Assembly: GCA_016210845.1 (NCBI GenBank) | Contig: JACQTK010000145.1 | Span: 1-46,853 of the forward strand | DNA: 46,853 nt | Reading direction: 5' to 3' | Origin: Acidobacteriota bacterium | GTDB taxonomy: Bacteria > Acidobacteriota > Vicinamibacteria > Vicinamibacterales > UBA2999 | Shown here: piece by piece, positions 11,219 to 44,855 of the stretch | How positions within the stretch are numbered: position 1 is the first letter of the stretch | How the letters are laid out: every line of letters starts with the position of its first letter | Notes under the pieces: model-generated | What the model saw: the letters and a program-made list of their open reading frames with translations, nothing else | What the model was told of the DNA's origin: nothing | Databases searched by the model: none | Position numbers and translations under genes: made by a program

Positions 11219-12746
11219 GGCCAGCACGGATGCGATCGAGCGCTTCCGCGCCGCCGTGGCCGGCGGACTGGGGCTGCAGTTCGAGGAGGCGAAGCTCGGG
11301 TTTCTCGCCGGTGTCCTGCAGCGGCGGCTGCAGATCACCGGGCAGCCCGTCGAGCGGTATCTGTCACGCCTGGAATCGGAGCAGGACCAGGACGAAGTCG
11401 GAGCGCTCGCGCAGGAGCTGACGGTGGGCGAGACGTACTTCTTCCGCAACGCCGATCACTACCGCGCGCTGACGGAACACGTGCTTCCCGAGCGACTCGC
11501 CGCGCACGGCGCCGCCAGGGTTCTCCGGATCCTCTCGCTCGGGTGCGCGTCGGGCGAGGAGCCGTACTCCCTGGCCATCATGGCTCGCACGGTGATCCAG
11601 GACCCGGCGTGGCCCGTGTCGATCCTTGGCGTCGACGTGAACCCCGTGATACTCGACAAGGCCCGGCGCGGCCGGTATTCGGAATGGGCGTTGCGCGAGA
11701 CGCCCGCCGACGTCAGGCATCGATGGTTTCGCGCAGAGGGAGGACACCTCGTCCTCGACGACGCGCTGCGCGAGGCCGTCCGGTTCGAGCGGCACAATCT
11801 CGTGGACGAGCACGCGCGGGTCTGGCAACTCGACCCCTTCGACGTCATCTTCTGCCGGAACGTGCTGATGTACTTCACGCCCGCGCAGGCGCACGCGCTC
11901 GTCGGGCGCACGGCTCGCCTGCTGCAGACGGGCGGGTATCTCTTCCTCGGGCACGCCGAGACGCTGCGCGGCCTGTCCACGGCCTTCCATCTCCGCCACA
12001 CGCACGGCACGTTCTACTACCAGCGGAAGGACGCGCCCGGGTCGGCGGCACAACGCGAGCAGGCGCCACCCGCGCGGGCACATGGCCTGCCGCTGCCCGC
12101 CGACGGCGGTGGCTTCCGGCTCCGGCCGGAAGAACTTGCCGACACGTGGATTGCCACGATTGGCCGCGCGGCCGCCCGCGTCGCGGCGCTGGCGGAGGCG
12201 CCTCGGCCGCGCCCGATCGCGCGCGCCGGCCAGCAGAAGCCCGGCTGGGAGCTGGGCCTGGTGCTGGAGCTGCTGCGGAAGGAGCGCTTCGCCGACGCGC
12301 TCGCGATGGTGGAGGCACTGCCGCCCGAGTCGGGTGGCGACCCGGACGTCCTGCTCCTGCACGCCGTGCTCTTGACGCACGGCGGCCAGCTCGCCAGGGC
12401 CGAGGAGGTATGTCAGCGGCTGCTCGACGTCGACGATCTGAATGCGGGCGCCCACTATCTGCTGGCGCTCTGCCGCGAAGGATCGTCCGACGTCTCGAGG
12501 GCCCTTCACCACGACCAGGCGGCGGCGTACCTGGACCCTGGCTTCGCGATGCCGCGCCTCCATCTCGGCCTGCTGTCGCGGCGCGCGGGCGATCGCGCCG
12601 CCGCCCGCCAGGAGCTGGGCCAGGCGCTCGTCCTCCTCCAGCGCGAGGAGGCGTCCCGCATCCTGCTCTTCGGCGGCGGATTCGGCCGCGAGGCGCTCGT
12701 GGCGCTGTGCCGCGCGGAGCTGGTGGCCTGCGGAGGGATGCCGTGA
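11211..12746 (+). CDS. CheR-type chemoreceptor methyltransferase with TPR tail (WspC-like)
   Basis: The 511-residue protein has a CheR N-terminal helical domain with ELTVGETYFFRN. The SAM-binding Rossmann domain follows (ILSLGCASGEEPYSLA, GVDVNP) with the characteristic FDVIFCRNVLMYF and GYLFLGHAETL. After a linker the C-terminus has TPR-like helices (DVLLLHAVLLTHGGQLARAEEVCQ and the following repeats, about 370-480). CheR proteins with TPR tails are typical of Wsp-type systems. ATG 11211 has GAGG upstream and overlaps cheW by 8 bp. GTG 11187, behind a stronger GGGGAGGGGAG, is an equally good start. Confidence 0.92.
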   Translation: MVEASTDAIERFRAAVAGGLGLQFEEAKLGFLAGVLQRRLQITGQPVERYLSRLESEQDQDEVGALAQELTVGETYFFRNADHYRALTEHVLPERLAAHGAARVLRILSLGCASGEEPYSLAIMARTVIQDPAWPVSILGVDVNPVILDKARRGRYSEWALRETPADVRHRWFRAEGGHLVLDDALREAVRFERHNLVDEHARVWQLDPFDVIFCRNVLMYFTPAQAHALVGRTARLLQTGGYLFLGHAETLRGLSTAFHLRHTHGTFYYQRKDAPGSAAQREQAPPARAHGLPLPADGGGFRLRPEELADTWIATIGRAAARVAALAEAPRPRPIARAGQQKPGWELGLVLELLRKERFADALAMVEALPPESGGDPDVLLLHAVLLTHGGQLARAEEVCQRLLDVDDLNAGAHYLLALCREGSSDVSRALHHDQAAAYLDPGFAMPRLHLGLLSRRAGDRAAARQELGQALVLLQREEASRILLFGGGFGREALVALCRAELVACGGMP

Positions 12747-30687: not shown

Positions 30688-30794
30688 CCCGCACTCGGGC
30701 CCCCGCGCGCTTAATTCGCAGGAAGTGGCCCGGGCCACAGTCGCGGTTTGCGGTCCCGGGCGTTTTGCGGTCAGATAGTCAGATAGATCGACGC

Positions 30795-33278
30795 ATGCAG
30801 ACCCGGATCGAGGACACCACGCTTCTGAGGGCCCCGGCCACGGTCGTCGAGCGTGTCCAGGGCGGACTCGTGGCGGTCGACCCCGCCTCGCCGCACTGGA
30901 TTGCCACCGACGACCGCGGACTGGCGATCCTGCGGCGCCTCGACGGCCGCACGCCGCTCGGCGACGTGGTCCGCGGCTACGCCGCCGAGACGGGGCTCGA
31001 CGCGAGCCGCGCGTGGCTGCACGTGGAGACCTTCGCCCGCGACGCGCTGCGGCACGGGTTCGTCTCCACCGACGGGGCCGTGCCGCTGCCGTACCTTGGC
31101 CGTGCCACCTACCTCCGCACCGACCGGCTGCGGGAGCTGTGGATTCAGGTCAACGACTTCTGCAATCTCGCGTGCGAGCACTGCCTGGTGTCGTCGAGCC
31201 CGGAGGGCGGCCAGGGGCTCGGACATGACGTGGTGCGCGACGCGATCGACCAGGCCGTCACGCTCGGCGTGGAACGCGTCTTCCTGACCGGCGGGGAGCC
31301 GTTGGCCCGCCCCGATGCCATCGATCTCATCGACCACATCGTCTCGCGGCGCGAGCGCGAGCTCGTGATCATGACGAACGGCACGCTGTTGCGAGGCGAT
31401 CGCCTCCGTGCGCTGGCGGCGCTGCCGGCCGATCGCCTGCGCGTGCAGATCAGCCTCGACGGCGCGTCGGCCGAGGTGAACGATCCCATTCGCGGCCGCG
31501 GCAGCTTCTCACGCATCGTCGACGGCGTCCGTGCCGCGGTGGGCGCCGGTCTGCGCACCACCGTGACGATGGTGCTGCTGCGAGGGAACCTGCAGGATGC
31601 GCCCGCCGTGGTGGCGCTGGCGGCCGACCTCGGCGTCACCAACGTCCACCTGCTCTGGCCTCATCGTCGGGGCAGGCTGATCACGGGTCCTCATGCCAGC
31701 CTTCCCGACGCGCGCGAGATCCTGAGTGCCGTCAGGGCCGCGCGGCAGGTGGCGCGCGAGCGCGGCGTCGCCATCGACAACGTCGAGGAGCTGCGGCTCC
31801 GGTTCGACGGTCGCCACGGCGTCAAGAACGACCTGGCCAGCGCGGGCTGGACGAGCCTGTGCCTGCATGCCGACGGCGCGATTTATCCGTCGGCGTCGAT
31901 GACCGGTGTGGCCGAGCTGCGGTGCGGCAGCGTCCTCGAGCAGCCGCTCGAGCGCATCTGGAAGGAAAGCGCGGTGCTGCGGGAGCTGCGCGGCGCCACC
32001 GTGGAGCGGAAGGTCCACTGCCGCACGTGCCATCTGAAGTTCCTGTGCGGCGGCGGCGACGTCGAGCACGGCTATTGGGCGTCGGGCGGCCCCACGGGCC
32101 GCGGCAGTTTCGTCGCGCACGACCCGTACTGCGAGCTGTACAAGGGCCTGGCGGCCGACGCCTTCGCCGACCTCGTCGACCAGGGGCGCGCGACGGTGCA
32201 GCCGCGATCCGGATTCGACCGTCCGATCGTCCTTCGGGCGATGGGCGAGCGGACCCTTCACGACGAGGAGACGCTCGTCCGCACCACGCACTCGGCATGC
32301 GTGCTGTCGGAGGAAGTGGCGGACCGGTCGCGTGCCGCCGTGCGGGAGTTCTACGGTCATGCCGCGGAGCAACCGCAGGCCGAGCTGTGCTGTCCCGTGC
32401 GGCCGGATGCCGAAGACCTCGCGCACATCCCCCCGGAGGTCGTGGAACGGTTCTATGGGTGCGGCAGCCCCGTATCGGCTGCTGCACCCCAGGCGGGTGA
32501 AACGCTGGTCGACCTGGGATCCGGCGCGGGGATTGATTGCTTCATCGCGTCGCGCCGCGTCGGCCGCGACGGCCGTGTGTGCGGCGTCGACATGACCGAC
32601 CAGATGCTGGCGGTCGCGCGCGAGTGTCAGCCCACGGTGGCCGCGGCGCTCGGTTACGACAACGTCGAGTTCCGCCGTGGCCTGCTCGAGCGCGTTCCGC
32701 TGGACGATGGCGTGGCGGATATCGTGACGTCGAACTGTGTGATCAACCTCTCACCGGACAAGCCGGCGGTGTTCCGCGAGATCTGGCGCGTGCTGAAGGA
32801 CCACGGGCGTCTCGTCATCGCCGACATCGTGTCCGACACCGAGGTGCCGCCCGCGCTGCGCGCCGACGGCCAGCTCTGGGGCGAATGCATCAGCGGCGCG
32901 CTCTCGGAGGACGGGTTGTTCTCGGCTTTGGAGCGCGCGGGCTTCTATGGGGTGACGCTCCTGAAGAAGAGCGTCTGGCGGGAGGTACAGGGGACACGCT
33001 TCTACTCGGTGACCGTGCGCGGGTTCAAGTTCGAGAAGAAGGCGGGCTGCCGGTACGTGGGCCAGTGGGCCACGTACCTCGGACCGATGAAGGCAGCCGT
33101 CGACGAAGAGGGGCACTTCTTCCCGCGCGGTGTGCCCGTCGAGGTGTGCACCGACACGGCCGCCAAGCTGCGCGCGGCGCCGTACGCGGGAAATTTCGCA
33201 GTCGTCGACGGTCCCGACTCGGAGATGACCGTTACCGCAGGCGACGGCTGCTGCGGCCCTGGCGGCACGTGCTGCTGA
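30795..33278 (+). CDS. PqqD-like / radical SAM-SPASM / ArsM-like methyltransferase fusion
   Basis: The 827-residue enzyme has three modules. Residues 1-105 form a PqqD-like domain. Residues about 115-470 are a radical SAM enzyme with C123-x3-C127-x2-C130 and GGEPL, followed by a Cys-rich SPASM-like region (CRTCHLKFLCGGGD, DPYCELYK). Residues about 500-827 are a SAM methyltransferase of the ArsM type: CC at 532-533, LVDLGSGAGIDCF, SNCVINLSPDK (C648), WGECISGAL (C698) and a C-terminal CCGPGGTCC. C648 and C698 are 50 apart, the spacing I recall for the arsenic-binding cysteines of algal ArsM. A metalloid or peptide substrate is inferred. ATG 30795 was chosen; the frame is open from 30765 without a better start. 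Confidence 0.85.
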   Translation: MQTRIEDTTLLRAPATVVERVQGGLVAVDPASPHWIATDDRGLAILRRLDGRTPLGDVVRGYAAETGLDASRAWLHVETFARDALRHGFVSTDGAVPLPYLGRATYLRTDRLRELWIQVNDFCNLACEHCLVSSSPEGGQGLGHDVVRDAIDQAVTLGVERVFLTGGEPLARPDAIDLIDHIVSRRERELVIMTNGTLLRGDRLRALAALPADRLRVQISLDGASAEVNDPIRGRGSFSRIVDGVRAAVGAGLRTTVTMVLLRGNLQDAPAVVALAADLGVTNVHLLWPHRRGRLITGPHASLPDAREILSAVRAARQVARERGVAIDNVEELRLRFDGRHGVKNDLASAGWTSLCLHADGAIYPSASMTGVAELRCGSVLEQPLERIWKESAVLRELRGATVERKVHCRTCHLKFLCGGGDVEHGYWASGGPTGRGSFVAHDPYCELYKGLAADAFADLVDQGRATVQPRSGFDRPIVLRAMGERTLHDEETLVRTTHSACVLSEEVADRSRAAVREFYGHAAEQPQAELCCPVRPDAEDLAHIPPEVVERFYGCGSPVSAAAPQAGETLVDLGSGAGIDCFIASRRVGRDGRVCGVDMTDQMLAVARECQPTVAAALGYDNVEFRRGLLERVPLDDGVADIVTSNCVINLSPDKPAVFREIWRVLKDHGRLVIADIVSDTEVPPALRADGQLWGECISGALSEDGLFSALERAGFYGVTLLKKSVWREVQGTRFYSVTVRGFKFEKKAGCRYVGQWATYLGPMKAAVDEEGHFFPRGVPVEVCTDTAAKLRAAPYAGNFAVVDGPDSEMTVTAGDGCCGPGGTCC

Positions 33279-35642: not shown

Positions 35643-36929
35643 TCATCGCGCTGCCGTACGGAAACCGGCGACGATATTGCGCCGGTGGCGCTTGTAGAAG
35701 TTCCGGAACGTCGTCCGGATCAGGCGTGACCGCGTCATCCAGCCGCCGCCTCGCAGCACTTTCTTCTCGCCGAAGTACGGCTGCGAATACTCCGCGTAGG
35801 GATCGCAGGCGAACCCGGGATAGGGGTGGAAGGTGTCCTCGACCCACTCCCAGACGTTGCCGATCATCTGGCGGCAGCCAACCGGGCTGTCGCCCTCCGG
35901 CAGCGCGCGCACGTCGATGGTGGCGCCCGCGCGAAAATCCAGACTGGCGCGTTCGGGGCTGGGCGCTTCGTCGCCCCAGGGAAAGCGGCGCTTGCGTCCC
36001 GTCGTGAAGTCGTACGTGGCGGCCATCTCCCACTCCGCCTCGGTGGGGAGCCGCCGCCCCGCCCACCGGCAGAAGGCGTCGGCTTCGTACCAGTTCACGT
36101 GAACGACCGGATGCCACGGCTCCAGGGGCAGCACCGCATCGAACTGTCGGGTGTGCCAGCGCCCCGCGCCATCGCGGATCCAGAACAGCGGGTGCCCGGC
36201 CCCTTCGCGCCGCCGCCAGTCCCATCCGCGGCGACTCCAGCACTCGCGACGATGGTAGCCTCCGTCATCGACGAAGGCCCGGAATTCCGCGTTCGTGACG
36301 GGAGCGGCCGAGAGGCGAAAGGGTTTCACCTCGATGGGATGCGCCCACTTCTCGTTGTCGAAGACGAACGGCTCGCGAGGATCGGCGCCCAGCCGGAACA
36401 TGCCGCCGGGGACGTGCACGTCGTACGGGCGGTGCGCGACGTCCACCTCCGGGGCGCCCCACACCGGATCGAACCGGCTCAACCCTGGCCGGCGATAGCC
36501 ATGTGTCTGGACGATCGTCGTCAAGGTCTCGGTGTGCATGTCCTCGTGGCACGCAGCCAGGGTGTAGAAGTAGGCTTCCTCGGCGGAAGGCGTTCGCGAA
36601 TCGAGCCGCGCCATGCATCGCCGCAGGACCTCGGCGATGTAGGCCAGCGTCCCCTCACGGGATGGAAACGCATGATCCCAGCGCCGCTTGTACGAGACAT
36701 GGAAGGCATCGTAGATGCCGTCGGAGCCCGGGAGAAGCGATTCGGCTCCGTCCAGGCCTCGCAGGATCCAGTACTCCTGGAACCATCCGACGTGGCCGAC
36801 CTCCCAGATAGGGGGCTCGACGAAGTGGCCGCGGCGGCCGAGCAGCTGGTCATCGGTCAGCCCCTCCAGCAGCTCGAGCTCGACAGAGCGCGCGTCGAGC
36901 AGCGCATCGATCAGAAGACCCGTTGTCAT
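35643..36929 (-). CDS. EgtB-like sulfoxide synthase (DinB plus FGE-sulfatase domains)
   Basis: The 428-residue protein has an N-terminal DinB-like helical domain and a C-terminal FGE-sulfatase domain ([49 protein letters not shown]). The iron ligands of EgtB are present as H46 (GHVGWF), H128 and H132 (HEDMH). In ergothioneine synthesis EgtB joins a thiol to trimethylhistidine with O2. No EgtD, EgtC or EgtE gene is in the window, so the substrate could be ergothioneine, ovothiol or selenoneine type (the SenA homologue is also an EgtB relative). ATG 36929 has a perfect GGAGG eight bases upstream. Confidence 0.85.
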
Positions 36930-36979
36930 CGTTCGATCCTCCATCATTATCATCAAGCTCGTCGCCTGGGGCTGGGCAC

Positions 36980-37009
36980 TTGACTTTCCACTCGGGTGGA
37001 CAGCCTACA

Positions 37010-37011
<2 letters not shown>
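36980..37011 (+). promoter_or_regulatory. MerR-type promoter in front of the decayed metal operon
   Basis: TTGACT (36980-36985) is followed by a 19-base spacer holding the dyad TTCCACTCGGGTGGA and then CTACACT as minus 10. The long spacer with a central dyad is diagnostic of MerR-family promoters. It is almost identical to the promoters at 46072-46102 and 46107-46137. Confidence 0.75.
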
Positions 37012-37807
<796 letters not shown>

Positions 37808-37811
<4 letters not shown>

Positions 37812-37926
37812 CGAGCGCCTGGACCGTGCGCCTCGCGAGTCTCGCGTTCGTCGGCGCAATCGTGACGGCCGGCGATGTCGCGGGACAGCGGCCACGGGGC
37901 ATCACGATTTCGGTCCCGGGCATTCG
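37808..37926 (+). pseudogene. Fragment of a secreted HMA-like protein
   Basis: The GTG at 37808 overlaps the preceding stop as GTGA, just as the intact gene overlaps the intact ATPase gene. The codons read LASLAFVGAIVTAGDVAGQ, then [10 protein letters not shown], matching the signal peptide and first strand of 41971-42279. Similarity ends where the CMYG motif should be. Confidence 0.75.
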
Positions 37927-37939
37927 CTGGCCGGTGCCG

Positions 37940-38177
37940 GCCACGCCCGGCAGCCGACCTGCCCGTCACATGGGGCTCGCGTGGAGGGCCGGACGGGGCC
38001 GGACTCCTCTACGTCACCGACGCGGACAACGGCGTCGTGGAGCGGTACGGCACCGACGGCACGCTGGAGTCGCGGTGGAGCGGATTCACGCGGCCCGTGG
38101 CCGTGGCGCCCACCGATGGCCTCGTCTACGTCGGTGACTTCTATGACACAGGGATTCGCCGGGTGCAATGCGAGTAG
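37940..38177 (+). pseudogene. Fragment of an NHL-repeat protein
   Basis: In a different frame, LLYVTDADNGVVERYGTDG and GLVYVGDFYDTGIRRVQCE match the NHL blades and C-terminus of the protein at 41447-41974 (there TVYASDFYETDIRQLRCDS). The N-terminal membrane anchor and middle blades are missing. It is the last piece of the decayed operon. Confidence 0.7.
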
Positions 38178-38199: not shown

Positions 38200-38697
38200 C
38201 TACGTCGGGCGTGTGGGGCGATGGCCGAGGACCTGCGTTGCGAGGCGAATGGTGTCCGCCGTGTGGCTCGGCTCATGCTCTTCGATGAGACCGCACACGC
38301 AGCCGTCGCGCGGCCCGGCCACGACTGCCTGGGCCCGAAGCGCCGCGAGCTCGTTCCTGAAATCCCCGAGAGCCCGGATGTGCTCATCCAGTTGTCGCAG
38401 CTTGTCCTCGACGACGCGGAGAACATGCGCACACGGCGTCACACCCTGCCGCCGCAGCGCGAGGACATCGCGGATTTCCTGGAGCGACAGCCCGACCGTC
38501 TTGGCTTTGAGGATGAAACGGAGGCGATCGCGGTCCGCCGGACCGTAGACGCGGTAGCCGGCCGACGTGCGCCCGGAGGCGGCCAGCAGGCCGATGCGCT
38601 CGTAGTACCGGATCGTGCGAGGGTTGAGACCGAACTCCGCCGCCAGTTCGCCCACGTGTGCCGCGGAGCGGGTTACTCGCGATGGGGATTTCGCCAT
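38200..38697 (-). CDS. MerR-family heavy-metal-responsive regulator
   Basis: The 165-residue protein has a MerR winged helix (VGELAAEFGLNPRTIRYYERIGLL, then AGYRVYGPADRDRLRFI) and a dimerisation helix. Possible metal ligands are C89 (GVTPCAHV), C133 and C135 (DGCVCGLIEEHE). The cysteine expected 35 residues after C89 is absent, so specificity may differ from MerR itself, perhaps Zn, Cd or Cu type. ATG 38697 was chosen; an upstream TTG at 38718 would add seven residues. It is downstream of the HMA selenoprotein on the same strand and convergent with the decayed operon. Confidence 0.88.
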   Translation of the reverse strand: MAKSPSRVTRSAAHVGELAAEFGLNPRTIRYYERIGLLAASGRTSAGYRVYGPADRDRLRFILKAKTVGLSLQEIRDVLALRRQGVTPCAHVLRVVEDKLRQLDEHIRALGDFRNELAALRAQAVVAGPRDGCVCGLIEEHEPSHTADTIRLATQVLGHRPTRPT

Positions 38698-38714
38698 GGC
38701 ATCAGGATAACGCC

Positions 38715-38810
38715 TCAATGCTGGTGCTGGATGAGCGCCGCCGTCCAGGCGGGAAACGCGCGGAGGAGGATCGCCACCAGCACGCCCGCCGACTCACTCG
38801 TTGGCGACAT
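38715..38810 (-). CDS. Possible 31-residue membrane peptide with HQH end
   Basis: An ATG at 38810 opens a 31-codon frame overlapping the end of the HMA selenoprotein gene by 17 bp. It consists of a polar start, one hydrophobic helix (AGVLVAILLRAFPAWTAALI) and the C-terminus QHQH. Third positions are G/C-rich. The ribosome site is weak (AAGG three bases before the ATG). It may be a genuine small membrane peptide of the metal operon, the tail of a lost membrane protein, or chance. Confidence 0.3.
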   Translation of the reverse strand: MSPTSESAGVLVAILLRAFPAWTAALIQHQH

Positions 38811-39144
38811 GGGCCTTGAAGCCGATTTCCTGCACCGCCTCGACGAGAGCATCCGCGCTGACGAGCCCGGGGCGGTACCTGACGACGGCCTGCGGGGGCT
38901 GGAACGACACCTCCGCGGCGGTGACGCCGTCGACATCCAACAGGGCCTGGCGCACGGCCAGGGGACACCCGCCTCAGGTCATTCCCTGGACCGCCAGCGT
39001 GACCGTGTCGGTCTCGCCGGGCACGTCATGGCTGGCCGGGGCGCCTGGGCGCGCGGCGTTTGAACCGCACCCGCCAAGGGCAAGCGCAGCCGCGATGGCG
39101 AGCGCCACAAGTGCGGGCCTCCTTTCGATCCACATCGCCTTCAT
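38794..39144 (-). CDS. MerP/HMA-like metal-binding lipoprotein, candidate selenoprotein (U57)
   Basis: The frame codes 116 residues if the TGA at 38974-38976 is read as selenocysteine. A signal peptide ends in a lipobox (LALGGC). The HMA domain follows: TLAVQGMT-U57-GGC60-PLAVRQAL, then VDGVTAAEVSFQPPQAVVRY, AVQEIGFKAHV and stop. The first Cys of the metal-binding CxxC is exactly the position of the TGA. In-frame homology continues for 60 residues beyond it. A perfect hairpin with G and U in its loop sits 11-28 bases after the TGA. The ATG overlaps the merR stop (ATGA), so metal-controlled expression is likely. It probably captures soft ions in the periplasm. A one-base or point-mutation pseudogene is the alternative. 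Confidence 0.82.
38946..38962 (-). promoter_or_regulatory. Candidate bacterial SECIS hairpin of the HMA selenoprotein
   Basis: Reading the mRNA, the stem CCTGGC and GCCAGG closes the loop CGTGC. The loop starts 18 bases after the TGA and has G and U at its tip. This fits the known rules for bacterial SECIS elements (loop about 16-37 bases after UGA, G among the first two loop bases). Confidence 0.7.
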
Positions 39145-39596
39145 CTCTCTTTCGTCGTGAGCGTCTCGATGACCGGGCACTCCGGTTCCGGGCGCGACCG
39201 CGGCGGGCGTCCGTCCGCCAGCGTACGTTCGCACCCTTCGAGGAAGCCCGACAGCGTGGCGCGAAACGCCTCGAGCTCCGTCATTCTGGCGTGGAGCTCG
39301 TCGAGCTTCGCGCGCAGCAGGTCGCGCACCTGACGGCAGCGGGTCAGGCCGCCACGGTCCTGATAGGTCACCAGGTCGCGAATCTCCTGCAACGTGAGGC
39401 CGAGCGCCTGCGCCTGCTTGATGAAGCGCAGCCGCTCGAGCGCTGCCGACGTGTAGCGGCGGAAGCCGCCGCTCGTACGTGGCGCCTGCGGCAGCAGGCG
39501 CAGGCGCTCGTAGTACCGCACCGTGTCCGGCGTCACGCCGCTTCGGGCCGCGACCTCGCCAATCTGATACGTCTCGTCCGCTGCTGACGACCGCAT
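39141..39596 (-). CDS. MerR-family regulator with mercury-type cysteine spacing
   Basis: The 151-residue protein has the MerR DNA-binding domain (YQIGEVAARSGVTPDTVRYYE, GGFRRYTSAALERLRFI) and a long dimerisation helix. Its cysteines are C87 (LTRCRQV), C122 (LEGCERT) and C140 (EPECPVIE). The 35-residue spacing of C87 and C122 equals C82/C117 of Tn501 MerR and the PbrR pair. The third Cys is 18 rather than 9 residues further. AGAGGT precedes the ATG. It lies between the CopZ remnant and the HMA selenoprotein gene in one unit, with a MerR-type promoter at 39831-39861 that it probably controls. Confidence 0.92.
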   Translation of the reverse strand: MRSSAADETYQIGEVAARSGVTPDTVRYYERLRLLPQAPRTSGGFRRYTSAALERLRFIKQAQALGLTLQEIRDLVTYQDRGGLTRCRQVRDLLRAKLDELHARMTELEAFRATLSGFLEGCERTLADGRPPRSRPEPECPVIETLTTKER

Positions 39597-39601
39597 GGTG
39601 C

Positions 39602-39823
39602 TTACCTCTTGGCCTGCGAGAGCGGCACGTTCGAAGCAAAACCGTAGGCCACCATTGTCCGCGCGCGCTTGACCGCTGCGGCGATGTCGCCCAGGCAGCA
39701 TACGCCACGGGGAGCCGTGAGGAGATCGACCGCCTGTCCCGTCGTCGCGCTCACGGGGCACACGCCGACGCGGCAGGAGACCGATCCAGGTGCCGAACAG
39801 CGCGACGATCCGCCGGCGTCCAC
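39602..39823 (-). pseudogene. CopZ-like copper chaperone with internal deletion
   Basis: The 73-codon frame keeps the two ends of the CopZ (zinc-finger plus [2Fe-2S] BFD-like) family. The N-terminal CSAPGSVSCRVGVCPVSATTGQAVDLLTA is split between CSAPG and the CPVS-x3-G motif, and the C-terminal part is PRGVCCLGDIAAAVKRA. The roughly 100-residue middle with the remaining cysteines is missing and the join is in frame. It might still make a small Cys-rich peptide. The GTG at 39823 lies about where transcription from the MerR-type promoter should begin, so the message would be leaderless. Confidence 0.6.
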
Positions 39824-40083: not shown

Positions 40084-41124
40084 CTACCCCAGGGGCTTGA
40101 GCGCCACGGTCCATGAGAGCGGCACCCGCTGCGGCGGATCGCAGACCTCCGGGGTGCATGCCTGATACTCGAGCACCCCTTGGAGTGACATCGTCGCACC
40201 AGGCTTCTGCGCGAGCTGTCGCGTCTCGTTGTTGACGACAACAGCGACGTCCTGGATAAGCCGGAACGGCTGTGCGTACGCCGGCAGGCGCTCGTTCCCC
40301 GGCGCCTGGAACTCGGCGCTCGGCGGGTGGCTCAGGGGATAGATTCTCAGGTTCCCCGTCGATTCCAGGTCGAGGGCGACGACGCGATAGCGATGCTGGC
40401 CGGGAGCGATGACACGCATGCCGGGCCCGGGCGTGATGTCGAGCACAATCGAGAAGCGGTGGCCGGGCGCCACGGTCTCATCCGTGAGAAACGCCGCGAT
40501 CTCCGCTTGCGGCGTGGCGCGGCGGATGGGGTTCCCCATGCCCGACACGGGCTGCCCGATCTTCAACGCGATGCTCGCCGCGGTATTGCGATACTGGTAC
40601 TCCTCCTCGAAGTACCGCGCGAGGACACGGCCCTCACGGTTCAGGATGAACGTGCCAGGGTGCGGGATCCCATAGTTCTGATGGCCCGGCGCATACTGGC
40701 GGTTGAGGATCCCGTACCGTTCGACGATGCTGTGGTCCGCGTCCGAGAGAATCGGGAACTCGATCGCTCGCTCGTCGGCGAATCTCCTGATCGTCGCCGG
40801 AGGGTCGTACGTCACCGAGGCGATCCCCAGGCCCAGCTTCTGCAGCTCCCCGTACCGTGCTTGCAGCTCCACGAGCTGCGCTTTGCAGAACGGTCACCAG
40901 TCGGCCGAACGGTTGAAGAAGAGCATGGCTCCGTTCGGCCCCATGACCGACTGGAGCGACTGGGTGCGGCCGAACTGGTCGACAGCCGAGAAGTCGGGCA
41001 CGATCTCGCCGACCTGCGGTCCGATCCGCTCGACGTCGACCGGCTGCGCCGGCGGCGGCGCCTGAGCCGCCGTGCTCATCGTGATCGCCGCGGCCAGGAG
41101 CACTCCAAAGGCAGCACGTGTCAT
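40084..41124 (-). CDS. Secreted thioredoxin-like plus DsbD-alpha-like protein, candidate selenoprotein (U77)
   Basis: The frame codes 346 residues if the TGA at 40894-40896 is selenocysteine. A signal peptide (to about AAQA) is followed by a redoxin domain: GEIVPDFSAVDQFGR, MLFFNRSADW-U77-PFC80-KAQLVELQ, SVTYDPPATIRRFA and HPGTFILNREGRVLARYF. The TGA takes the place of the nucleophilic Cys of the CxxC site. The C-terminal 140 residues resemble the DsbD alpha domain, including its Cys pair (EYQACTPEVCDPPQRVPLSW). A perfect 7-bp hairpin follows the TGA. GGGGGGAG precedes the ATG. It probably passes electrons from the CcdA-like protein to oxidised envelope thiols. A nonsense mutation is the alternative. 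Confidence 0.85.
40863..40879 (-). promoter_or_regulatory. Candidate bacterial SECIS hairpin of the redoxin selenoprotein
   Basis: Reading the mRNA, GCAGCTC and GAGCTGC form a perfect 7-bp stem around the triloop GTG. The loop lies 22-24 bases after the TGA. G is first and U second in the loop, as in known bacterial SECIS elements. Confidence 0.75.
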
Positions 41125-41446
41125 ACGCTCCCCCCCCTTGACGGTGTTCGACGGTCTTCTCCTGCTTCGATCCTCACCGCTCGGCTTCGAGACTGTCCGC
41201 CGACCGGAGGACCTCCTCACGTGATATTAAACGCGCCGGGCGCGGTTTTTATTCCGCCGCCCGTAGAGAACAGTGCCTGGTTGTCGTACTCACGGTGCAG
41301 GCGCGCCGGCGTGGTTGCCCGTCGCCGAACATGACTCACGGTCACGGAGCATGCCCCTCGCGACGCAGGTGCGTGGCCGCCGTCCCGCGCGACCGACATA
41401 ACGTCATCGGCACCTGCGCCCAGATGACGCGAGGGGCGCCTCCGCG
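41125..41446. other. Intergenic region with an interrupted dyad
   Basis: No gene was recognised. GCCCCTCGCG (41353-41362) pairs with CGCGAGGGGC (41428-41437), and GCAGGTG (41365-41371) pairs with CACCTGC (41411-41417). A large interrupted hairpin could therefore form just after the NHL gene and end its operon. Nearer the redoxin gene, GGAGGTCCTCC and an AT-rich TTTAATATCAC (minus strand, about 41218-41230) may belong to a promoter. Confidence 0.45.
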
Positions 41447-41974: not shown

Positions 41975-42279
41975 AGCGAGATCGAGTACGTGTACGGATA
42001 TTCCGCCCGATCGATGGCACCGTCGAGCTGCTGGCGCGCCAGCGACGCTCCGGGCCTGACGGTGATTCGGATCTCCTCGGCATCCCACCGCAGGTCGATC
42101 CGCTCGATCTCCGGGATCTCGGCGAGCCGTTTTTCGATGCCGTACATGCAATAGGGCCCTGGAATCCCGGGGACGGAAATGGTGATGCCTTGTTGTCGCT
42201 GGCTCGCGAGATCGCCGGCCGTCACGATCGCCAACCCACCGGCGAGCGCGAGAGTGGCGAGCCGTGTGGCCGACCTCAT
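41971..42279 (-). CDS. Secreted HMA-like protein with a single cysteine
   Basis: The 102-residue protein has a signal peptide (to about DLASQ) and one ferredoxin-like HMA fold: [33 protein letters not shown], which I split here at CMYG, then [11 protein letters not shown]. The metal loop has only one Cys (PYCMYG) where MerP has CxxC. It may receive an ion from the ATPase or act with another thiol or selenol protein. The ATG overlaps the ATPase stop by 4 bp (ATGA). Confidence 0.8.
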
Positions 42280-44855
42280 ACTGTCCCCGGCTCGTGTCCC
42301 GTCTCGTGCACGGCCTGCACGCGGAAGCCGAGCGCGGTCACGGCCGATTCGATCTCGTGAATCCCGATCCGGTCCGGCCGGTACGCCACTCGCACCTTGT
42401 GCTCGCCGGCACTCGCCCTCACATCGTCAATCCCGTCGCGCGTACCAAGCCGCCGCTCGATCGTCTGCTCGCAGCCGGCGCAGTGGACATCGGGGACGTC
42501 CAGCAGCACGTGCGCCGGCGCGCTGGGCGGCCTGTGCTCCATCGCCCGCACGTCCACGCGCGCCTCGGCTGGCGACACCTCCTCGCGCCTGGCGTCCCGA
42601 TCGGCCACGTGCGCCGGCGACGGTCTGCCGGGCAGCAGCCGGCCGCCGAAGCTGTTGAGCAGCACGGCGCTCACGCTGGCGGCCATCGCCACCATGGCCC
42701 ACACGGGGTGCACGAGACCGGTGGCCGCCAGCGGAACGCCCACGGCGTTGAACGAGAAGGCGAAGACGAGGTTCTGCACCGTCTTCGCGTAGCTCTTTCT
42801 GCCGATGTGATACGCGTCCACGACCGCCGAGAGCCGCTCGCCGATGAGGATGACGTCGCTCGACTCGATCGCGATGTCCGTTCCGGCCCCGATGGCGATG
42901 CCGACGTCCGCCTGCATCAGTGCCGGAGCGTCGTTGATGCCGTCGCCCACGAACGCCACTCGTATGTTGCCGTGCTGCAACTCGCGCACGCGGTCGGCTT
43001 TCCGGTCCGGAAGCACGCGGGAACGGACGTCCTCGATGCCGACATCCCCTGCGATGGCTCGGGCGGTCGCCTCGGCGTCGCCCGTGACCATCACGACCTG
43101 CATCCCGAGCGCCCTGAGCTCGGCGATGGCCTGCTTCGCGTCGGCCTTCACGGTATCGGCGATCGAGAGCGTCCCCGCCACCTCACCGCCAACCGCGACG
43201 AGTACGGCCGTGCGGCCCCGCGCCTCCTCGCGCGCGAGCACGCGACCGGCATCCGCCACTGGCACGCCGCGGTCGGCCAGGAGCCTCGGCGTACCGATGA
43301 CGATGCGGCGTCCGCGGACGAGGGCCTCGACGCCGCCGCCCGCAATCGCCTGGAAGTGTTCCGCCTCGCTCAGCGTCACCTCCTCTTCTTCGGCGCGCGT
43401 GACAACGGCACGGGCCAGTGGGTGCTCCGAGGGCGACTCCGCGCTGGCCGCATCGCGCAGCACGTCCTCCCGCGAATATCCCGGCGTGGGAACGACCTCG
43501 ACGACGCGCGGCTTGCCTTCCGTGATCGTGCCGGTCTTGTCGAGGACGATGATCCGGATGTCCTTCAGGACCTGGAACGCCTCGCCGGAGCGCATCAGGA
43601 CGCCGCGCTCCGCCGCCATGCCGCCGCCTCGGATGAGCGCGAGCGGCGTCGCCATCCCGAGCGCGCACGGATAGCCCATCACGAGCACCGTGACCGCCGC
43701 ATAGATCGCACGCTGGTACACCGGCCCGGCGCCAAACAGGAGCGGCGCGATCACCCAGAACAAGTACGCGCCCAGCGAGATCGTGAGCACCACGGGCACG
43801 TAGTACTTGAGCACGCGATCCACCAGGACGATGATCCCCGGCTTGAGCGCCTTGGCCTCCTCCACGTGCCGCGCGACCTGACGGAGGAAGCTCTCGTCCC
43901 CCACGCGGGTGACCCGCACCAGGAGCGTGCCGGTCTGGTTCACGCTGCCGCCGATCACCTCGTCGCCCACCTGCTTCTCCGCAGGGATCGGCTCACCGGT
44001 CACCAACGCCTGGTCGACGGCGCTCCCGCCGTCCACGATCCGGCCATCGACCGGGATCCGCTCGCCTGGCCGGATCCGCACGTCGTCGCCGATCCTGACC
44101 TCGTCGATCGGGATCTCCTCCTCGCGGCCGTCACGGACCACCCGGGCCGTCGGCGGCTGCATCTCGAGCAGCCTGCGGACGCTCTGCGACGCGCGCGTCC
44201 GCACCTTCAGCGACACGAAGCCGGACAGCAGGTGATAGGTCGTCAGGAAGACCACGACCCCGAAGAAGTCGACGGCCGGGAACCCGTAGGCGCCGTTCCA
44301 GCCGGTGAACGGAATCGGCGAGCCGAGGAGCCCGCCGCCATAGCCCGCGAGCGCACCGGCCGTGAGCAGGACGTGCTGGTTCGTGATCCCGCGCCGCGCC
44401 GCGCCCCACGCCATGCGGAGGATGTGCCGGCCGGTCCAGAAGAAGACAAACGTGGCCGCGGCCCACGCGATCCAGATCTGCCAGTTCTCGATGACGAGCC
44501 GATCCAGCCACATCGCCGCCATGGCGGACACCATCCCGACGGCGAACCCGGCCGCGACCAGCAGGTTGTTGCGCTCGCGGCGCATCATCGCCTCCTGCTC
44601 CTCGAAGCTCTGCACCTTCCGCGGGTCGCGCACCGTGTAGCCCAGGCCGCGCAGCGTGTCCTCGATCTGCGTGTCCGTCACCTGGTCCGGGTGATACCGG
44701 ACGAGGGCTTCCTCATGCGCCAGCGAGACGTGCACGTCGTCGACGCCCTTCTGCCGGCCGATGGCCTTCCGAATCGAGTTCGCGCAGAAGGAACAGCTCA
44801 TGCCGCCAACCTTCATCTGAAGGGTGGCGGTGCCGGATGCCGCCGGCGGGTTCAC
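42276..44855 (-). CDS. P1B-type metal-transporting ATPase with YPC motif
   Basis: The 859-residue transporter has an N-terminal HMA domain (C21/C24 in GGMSCSFC), eight membrane helices, the A-domain VTGEP, and the P-domain D439 ([11 protein letters not shown]). HP ([10 protein letters not shown]) and GDGINDAP are also present. A second HMA domain at the C-terminus has CAGC ([14 protein letters not shown]). The membrane metal motif is Y395-P396-C397 ([12 protein letters not shown]) instead of CPC, so Cu(I) specificity cannot be assumed. The GTG overlaps the preceding gene (GTGA) with GGAGG upstream. It should pump a soft or transition metal ion from the cytoplasm. A decayed paralogue lies at 37010-37811. 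Confidence 0.92.

Follow-up and report, generated by a model that had tools for sequence, protein, structure and literature searches.

A predicted selenocysteine-containing, MerP-like metal-binding lipoprotein in a genome of the order Vicinamibacterales

Selenocysteine (Sec) forms of proteins related to mercury and heavy-metal transport have been listed before. The Global Ocean Sampling table includes a Sec MerP, represented by two sequences, and a cation ATPase with a UxxC motif (PMC2398784). A 2026 inventory of 119 families contains a MerT selenoprotein, a UxxC ATPase, and NF041115, which has a UxxU motif (PMC13188914). NCBIfam also includes NF045683, a selenoprotein similar to a MerT/CopZ fusion. 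A preliminary description of the DNA analysed here had guessed that Sec forms of HMA proteins were already reported, and Sec MerP, NF041115, and Sec P-type ATPases are indeed on record. Because of these earlier reports of Sec in MerP and HMA proteins, the arrangement presented here is less new than hoped, the Global Ocean Sampling MerP having been compared by its listing alone.

The window, i.e. the whole stretch of 46,853 nucleotides that was analysed, is the entire contig C113 of the Vicinamibacterales MAG G000 (4.18 Mb, 93.2% complete). It harbours the following features of the gene, hereafter Sec-MerP.

38797-39144, minus strand: predicted Sec-containing MerP-like HMA lipoprotein of 116 residues (translation, Pfam HMA, fold), stop TGA at 38794-38796
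38974-38976, minus strand: in-frame TGA, predicted Sec57 and first metal ligand (13 relatives also have TGA, whereas more distant HMA proteins have Cys)
38946-38962, minus strand: SECIS-like hairpin, 6-bp stem and loop CGTGC (72/72 pairs in 12 members; the codon-shuffle null was never that high)

One frame begins with the ATG at 39144, is interrupted by a single TGA, codon 57, and ends with a stop TGA (38796-38794); the coordinates of the preliminary description were correct, with the gene on the minus strand. With this TGA read as Sec, the product is MKAMWIERRPALVALAIAAALALGGCGSNAARPGAPASHDVPGETDTVTLAVQGMT-U-GGCPLAVRQALLDVDGVTAAEVSFQPPQAVVRYRPGLVSADALVEAVQEIGFKAHVANE, 116 residues with the metal motif GMT-U-GGC. 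The protein possesses a signal peptide with the lipobox LALGGC (LGGC-26), a short linker, and an HMA domain. Pfam HMA (PF00403) covers residues 49-110 as a whole domain (47 bits, cut-off 24.8), in which U57 occupies the position of the first Cys of the motif and Cys60 is the second ligand. Thus, the proposed replacement of the first Cys by TGA is borne out by the translation, the Pfam match, and the relatives, and the assignment as a lipoprotein agrees with the lipobox, whose Cys is conserved in at least 90% of the Sec-MerP clade. AlphaFold, run with the clade alignment, predicted a beta-alpha-beta-beta-alpha-beta domain with high confidence (mean pLDDT 88-98 per ten-residue block from residue 41). 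The top PDB match of this model in Foldseek is MerP 1osd (E 4.5e-8, TM-score 0.96 on the target). In the sequence comparison with solved structures, MerP (1osd, 1afi) aligned over residues 45-113, and U57 would therefore replace the first Hg-binding cysteine of MerP.

Similar to MerP (TIGR02052; 1afi, 1osd), the window protein combines an HMA fold, a CxxC-type ligand pair, and predicted export, and its relatives adjoin a MerT-like gene. Unlike MerP, it has Sec as first ligand and a lipobox, and its merT is deleted. With 62.9 bits it remains below the TIGR02052 cut-off of 92.55; it would work like MerP, though it is not a member by score. In NCBIfam, the window protein and most of the clade members that were scanned match NF041115 best. 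This family likewise has Sec in the HMA motif, but with two Sec residues (UxxU) instead of the one (UxxC) of the window protein and its clade. The NF041115 scores, 84.7 for the window protein and 76-92 for the clade members scanned (best 92.4), are all below the cut-off of 95. Sec MerT (PF02411, C/SxxU), NF045683, whose HMA part aligns to the window protein with 39 bits, and the Sec cation ATPase (UxxC) also carry Sec in mercury or heavy-metal transport proteins. However, these are a transporter, a fusion, and an ATPase, whereas Sec-MerP is a separate lipoprotein that is accompanied in relatives by a separate MerT-like gene.

When 162 genomes of the order were searched, the ten best matches after the window gene, from nine genomes, each contained exactly one TGA, at the identical codon. 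A phylum-wide search revealed two further UGA members, L169 and L171. In L169, the Arg under the hairpin loop is changed to Ser and the stem is nevertheless retained. Two other phylum matches flagged for TGA, L172 and L174, were discarded, as they have Cys at the motif and a stop near the match end. In total, at least 13 relatives, exclusively Acidobacteriota, have UGA at the equivalent of codon 57, which together with the window copy makes 14 genes. In a species-wide scan (one genome per species, 84,980 species), TGA was found only in Acidobacteria members of the Sec-MerP clade, and Cys in 112/112 other HMA segments read. The 12 members known when the maximum-likelihood tree was built form one clade (support 99/93) in this tree, which is coarse because it has 70 columns.

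The aligned members specify the second ligand with a Cys codon, TGT or TGC (UxxC). Downstream of the UGA, codon comparison among members gave dN/dS values mostly of 0.1-0.5, with a median of about 0.47 for the window copy against the other members and 0.24 among the others. The earlier claim that coding continues to the normal end of the family is in agreement with this purifying selection and with the intact coding in the closest relatives. An isolated nonsense change in close relatives, the contrary case named in the preliminary description, was not what we found, since the closest relatives all have the UGA, with intact coding after it. From the conservation of the UGA at an aligned Cys position and the purifying selection after it, we infer that the gene is a selenoprotein gene.

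The hairpin (CCTGGC-CGTGC-GCCAGG) starts 11 nt past the UGA and its loop 17 nt past, with G at loop position 2. All 72 base-pair cells of the stem are paired in the 12 members, and sliding one arm by 1-3 bases lowers the pairing to 8-44%. A compensatory pair was found in L058, in which a Leu-to-Val and a Gln-to-His change turn C-G into G-C; L063 has G-U at this place. Recoding with synonymous codons yielded 53 ± 3 pairs and reached 72 in 0/20,000 trials, a null in which the 12 members are kin and not 12 independent tests. In an any-register test, 0/300 shuffles matched the observed stem. The Rfam scan of the window returned no matches. A SECIS-type hairpin is present just downstream of the UGA, at the right distance as first described, and is retained in every clade member; its binding by SelB is putative.

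The neighbourhood of the gene includes further features related to metals.

38715-38792, minus strand: remaining C-terminal end of a MerT-like gene that is otherwise deleted (SAGVLVAILLRAFPAWTAALIQHQH + stop; tblastn E 7e-4, alignment scores)
39141-39761, minus strand: MerR-family regulator, start probably at 39599, stop overlapping the Sec-MerP start (ATGA) (Pfam MerR, PDB 4ua1)
38200-38718, minus strand: second MerR-family regulator, CadR/ZntR-like
42276-44855, minus strand: heavy-metal P-type ATPase with two HMA stretches (TIGR01525, 552 bits, cut-off 346; context)

A MerT-like gene starts directly 3' of the Sec-MerP gene in 12 of the 13 relatives, and in the thirteenth the contig ends. The encoded proteins resemble MerT and carry two adjacent cysteines (CC) in their first membrane helix, but the three that were scanned score 24-30 bits against a Pfam cut-off of 32.9. 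In L072, a MerR gene comes first, followed by the genes of a CopZ-type Fe-S chaperone (NF047645, 108.7 bits, cut-off 100), Sec-MerP, and a MerT-like protein. The best PDB match of the upstream MerR of the window is 4ua1, an Hg(II)-bound structure of MerR from Bacillus megaterium, with the three metal-ligand cysteines aligned. The MerT-like neighbours, the gene order in L072, the ATGA overlap with MerR, and the MerR cysteines together point to Hg(II) as substrate. The label MerP-like given in the preliminary description is consistent with MerP 1osd as best fold match and with the adjoining MerT-like genes. As the MerT-like gene directly follows in 12/13 relatives, the most plausible reading of the family is that of a MerP, which would bind Hg(II) via a Sec-Cys pair. 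For the window protein, we consider it likely that it is a selenoprotein, namely a MerP-like metal-binding lipoprotein with Sec57 and Cys60 as ligands and most likely Hg(II) as metal.

In the proposed mechanism, SelB and tRNA-Sec would read the UGA via the hairpin, and the lipid-anchored HMA domain, placed outside the inner membrane, would capture a soft ion, likely Hg(II), between Sec57 and Cys60. In the relatives, the captured ion would be handed to the MerT-like protein encoded next door. The MerR whose stop overlaps the Sec-MerP start would control the gene.

The merT stub of the window corresponds to the last 25 codons and lies directly after the Sec-MerP gene, in a different frame. Compared with the MerT ends of seven relatives, it gave alignment scores of 52-71, and no shuffle scored as high. 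The window merT is, by this alignment, deleted except for these codons, a loss newly seen here, which leaves the window copy of Sec-MerP without its usual partner. The search of G000 for a further MerT was empty, a result that carries little weight. Owing to this deletion, Sec-MerP in G000 is probably a lone metal trap, or would hand the ion over to another transporter, or belongs to a module that is heading for loss. Apparent degenerate second copies of the end of the P-type ATPase and of an NHL-repeat protein were found at 36983-38177 on the plus strand, adjoining the Sec-MerP gene on the opposite strand.

The protein could also be a selenoprotein whose Sec-Cys pair binds a soft ion other than Hg(II), namely Cu(I), Ag(I), Cd(II), or As(III), or takes part in a redox reaction. 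The HMA domains of CopZ and of copper ATPases score almost equal to MerP, and the window also holds the heavy-metal P-type ATPase and the CadR/ZntR-like MerR. Nonetheless, the MerT-like neighbour in 12/13 relatives, MerP as best fold match, and the three ligand cysteines that MerR shares with 4ua1 make such a role unlikely.

The use of Sec by G000 was assessed with the Sec machinery and with a second UGA gene, which is located approximately 0.9 kb upstream of the Sec-MerP gene on the same strand.

40084-41220, minus strand: AhpC/TSA redoxin, an internal control for Sec use, with an in-frame TGA at 40894-40896 (SADW-U-PFC) and a hairpin at 40863-40879

The genome of G000 encodes a tRNA-Sec (68 bits, anticodon TCA). 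Regarding the check for sel genes suggested in the preliminary description, the tRNA-Sec was present, whereas searches of the 93.2%-complete MAG detected no selA, selB, or selD. The two best selB matches in G000 correspond to IF2 and CysN, and the best selD match to ThiL. In the order (162 genomes), selB is above the cut-off in 113 genomes and selA in 121; selA occurs in 9/9 sampled genomes of the order that carry the Sec-MerP clade besides G000, and in the family 27/27 other tRNA-Sec genomes have selA or selB. The genome G109 has tRNA-Sec, selA, selB, and selD in one cluster, so that a single assembly gap could remove several of them. In other family members the sel genes are on different contigs, an arrangement for which more than one gap would have to be assumed.

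A scan of all TGAs of the window for coding potential recovered the redoxin TGA independently; two other candidates, at 11366 and 33766, resemble shadow frames of other genes. A common stem is present in 12 UGA members of the redoxin (72/72 pairs), and G000 possesses a second redoxin copy with one TGA on another contig (C209:834-1898). Of 76 genomes of the order that carry the UGA form, 74 also encode selA or selB, the exceptions being G000 and the 74%-complete G141. Conversely, 9/10 genomes with only stop-free redoxin forms have neither gene (Fisher p = 1.2e-9; genome sets compiled by hand from tables), and the redoxin position is Cys where selA/selB are absent. Since the redoxin UGA tracks selA/selB across the order, G000 looks like a Sec-using genome. 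Together, the cluster in G109, the 27/27 family genomes, and the two UGA redoxin genes of G000 make incompleteness of the MAG the best explanation for the missing selA, selB, and selD. The search among molybdopterin oxidoreductases of G000 for another Sec gene revealed no in-frame TGA, and a literature search on Sec in Vicinamibacterales found nothing relevant. A SenA-type selenoneine synthase is encoded at 35643-36956 on the minus strand of the window (NF041186, 447 bits, cut-off 420), a second sign of selenium use; senB and senC were not recognised among the window genes scanned.

Counted against the Hg(II)-binding selenoprotein are the sel genes not found, the deleted merT, the raised dN/dS, and the MerT-like scores below the cut-off. 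Several of these observations would fit a remnant, in which merT was deleted, the Sec machinery was perhaps lost, and translation now stops at the UGA, after residue 56; the merT stub, the absence of selA/selB/selD from the assembly, the somewhat raised dN/dS of the window copy, and the degenerate copies of neighbouring genes alongside speak for it. However, motif, frame, and stem are intact in Sec-MerP, as is the tRNA-Sec, the genome has two UGA redoxin genes on two contigs, one with an intact stem, and selA or selB accompanies the tRNA-Sec in each of the 27 other family genomes that encode one, which makes such decay improbable. A simple nonsense mutation, an error of sequencing, or a changed code in which TGA stands for Trp or Cys is favoured only by the absence of selA/selB/selD and was rejected as highly implausible, given the identical codon in 14 independent genes, the purifying selection downstream, the conserved stem, the Cys at the aligned residue elsewhere, and the use of TGA as commonest stop in the window and as terminator of Sec-MerP itself.

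Two other Sec-HMA clades were found in the order. Group B has the motif GM[TIF]-U-EGC and its own stem. In the coarse tree mentioned above, group C (GMT-U-[AT]GC) branches within Cys forms (100/95), a placement that suggests Sec originated a second time; no uniform gap-free stem was found in this group, and its Sec status is therefore less well supported. In G064, one HMA gene of group C that has TGA at its motif (L054, 2047-2400, minus strand) is fused at its 5' end to an unrelated membrane protein. G064 is a complete genome without selA/selB, and this copy is probably decayed. With three Sec clades, one of them nested among Cys forms, a broader and rather speculative view is that recoding of the first ligand to Sec arose more than once in one order, that Sec-MerP with MerT is a recurrent selenium-dependent mercury system, and that the window protein, having lost its transporter, persists as a selenol trap that captures Hg on its own.

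In the apparent mercury-handling module, selenium would act as metal ligand and not as redox centre, in an order whose selenoproteome is hardly described so far. The Sec form and its natural Cys relatives of the same fold offer a compact pair for asking what a selenol contributes to Hg(II) capture. Ordinary annotation would end all Sec-MerP genes near residue 50-60 and lose the HMA domain. For the window gene this was anticipated in the preliminary description, with a stop at residue 56, and holds true with the TGA as codon 57 and the HMA domain at residues 49-110.

Other genes were observed near Sec-MerP or elsewhere in the window. A DF family (seleno)protein gene is located just upstream of Sec-MerP in L059 (4232-4549, minus strand; NF049942, 96.8 bits, cut-off 70), and a similar gene lies ahead of Sec-MerP in L064. 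The window also encodes, at 30765-33278 on the plus strand, a fusion of a radical SAM/SPASM protein with an ArsM-like methyltransferase (ArsM 230.9, cut-off 263), which ends in CCGPGGTCC.
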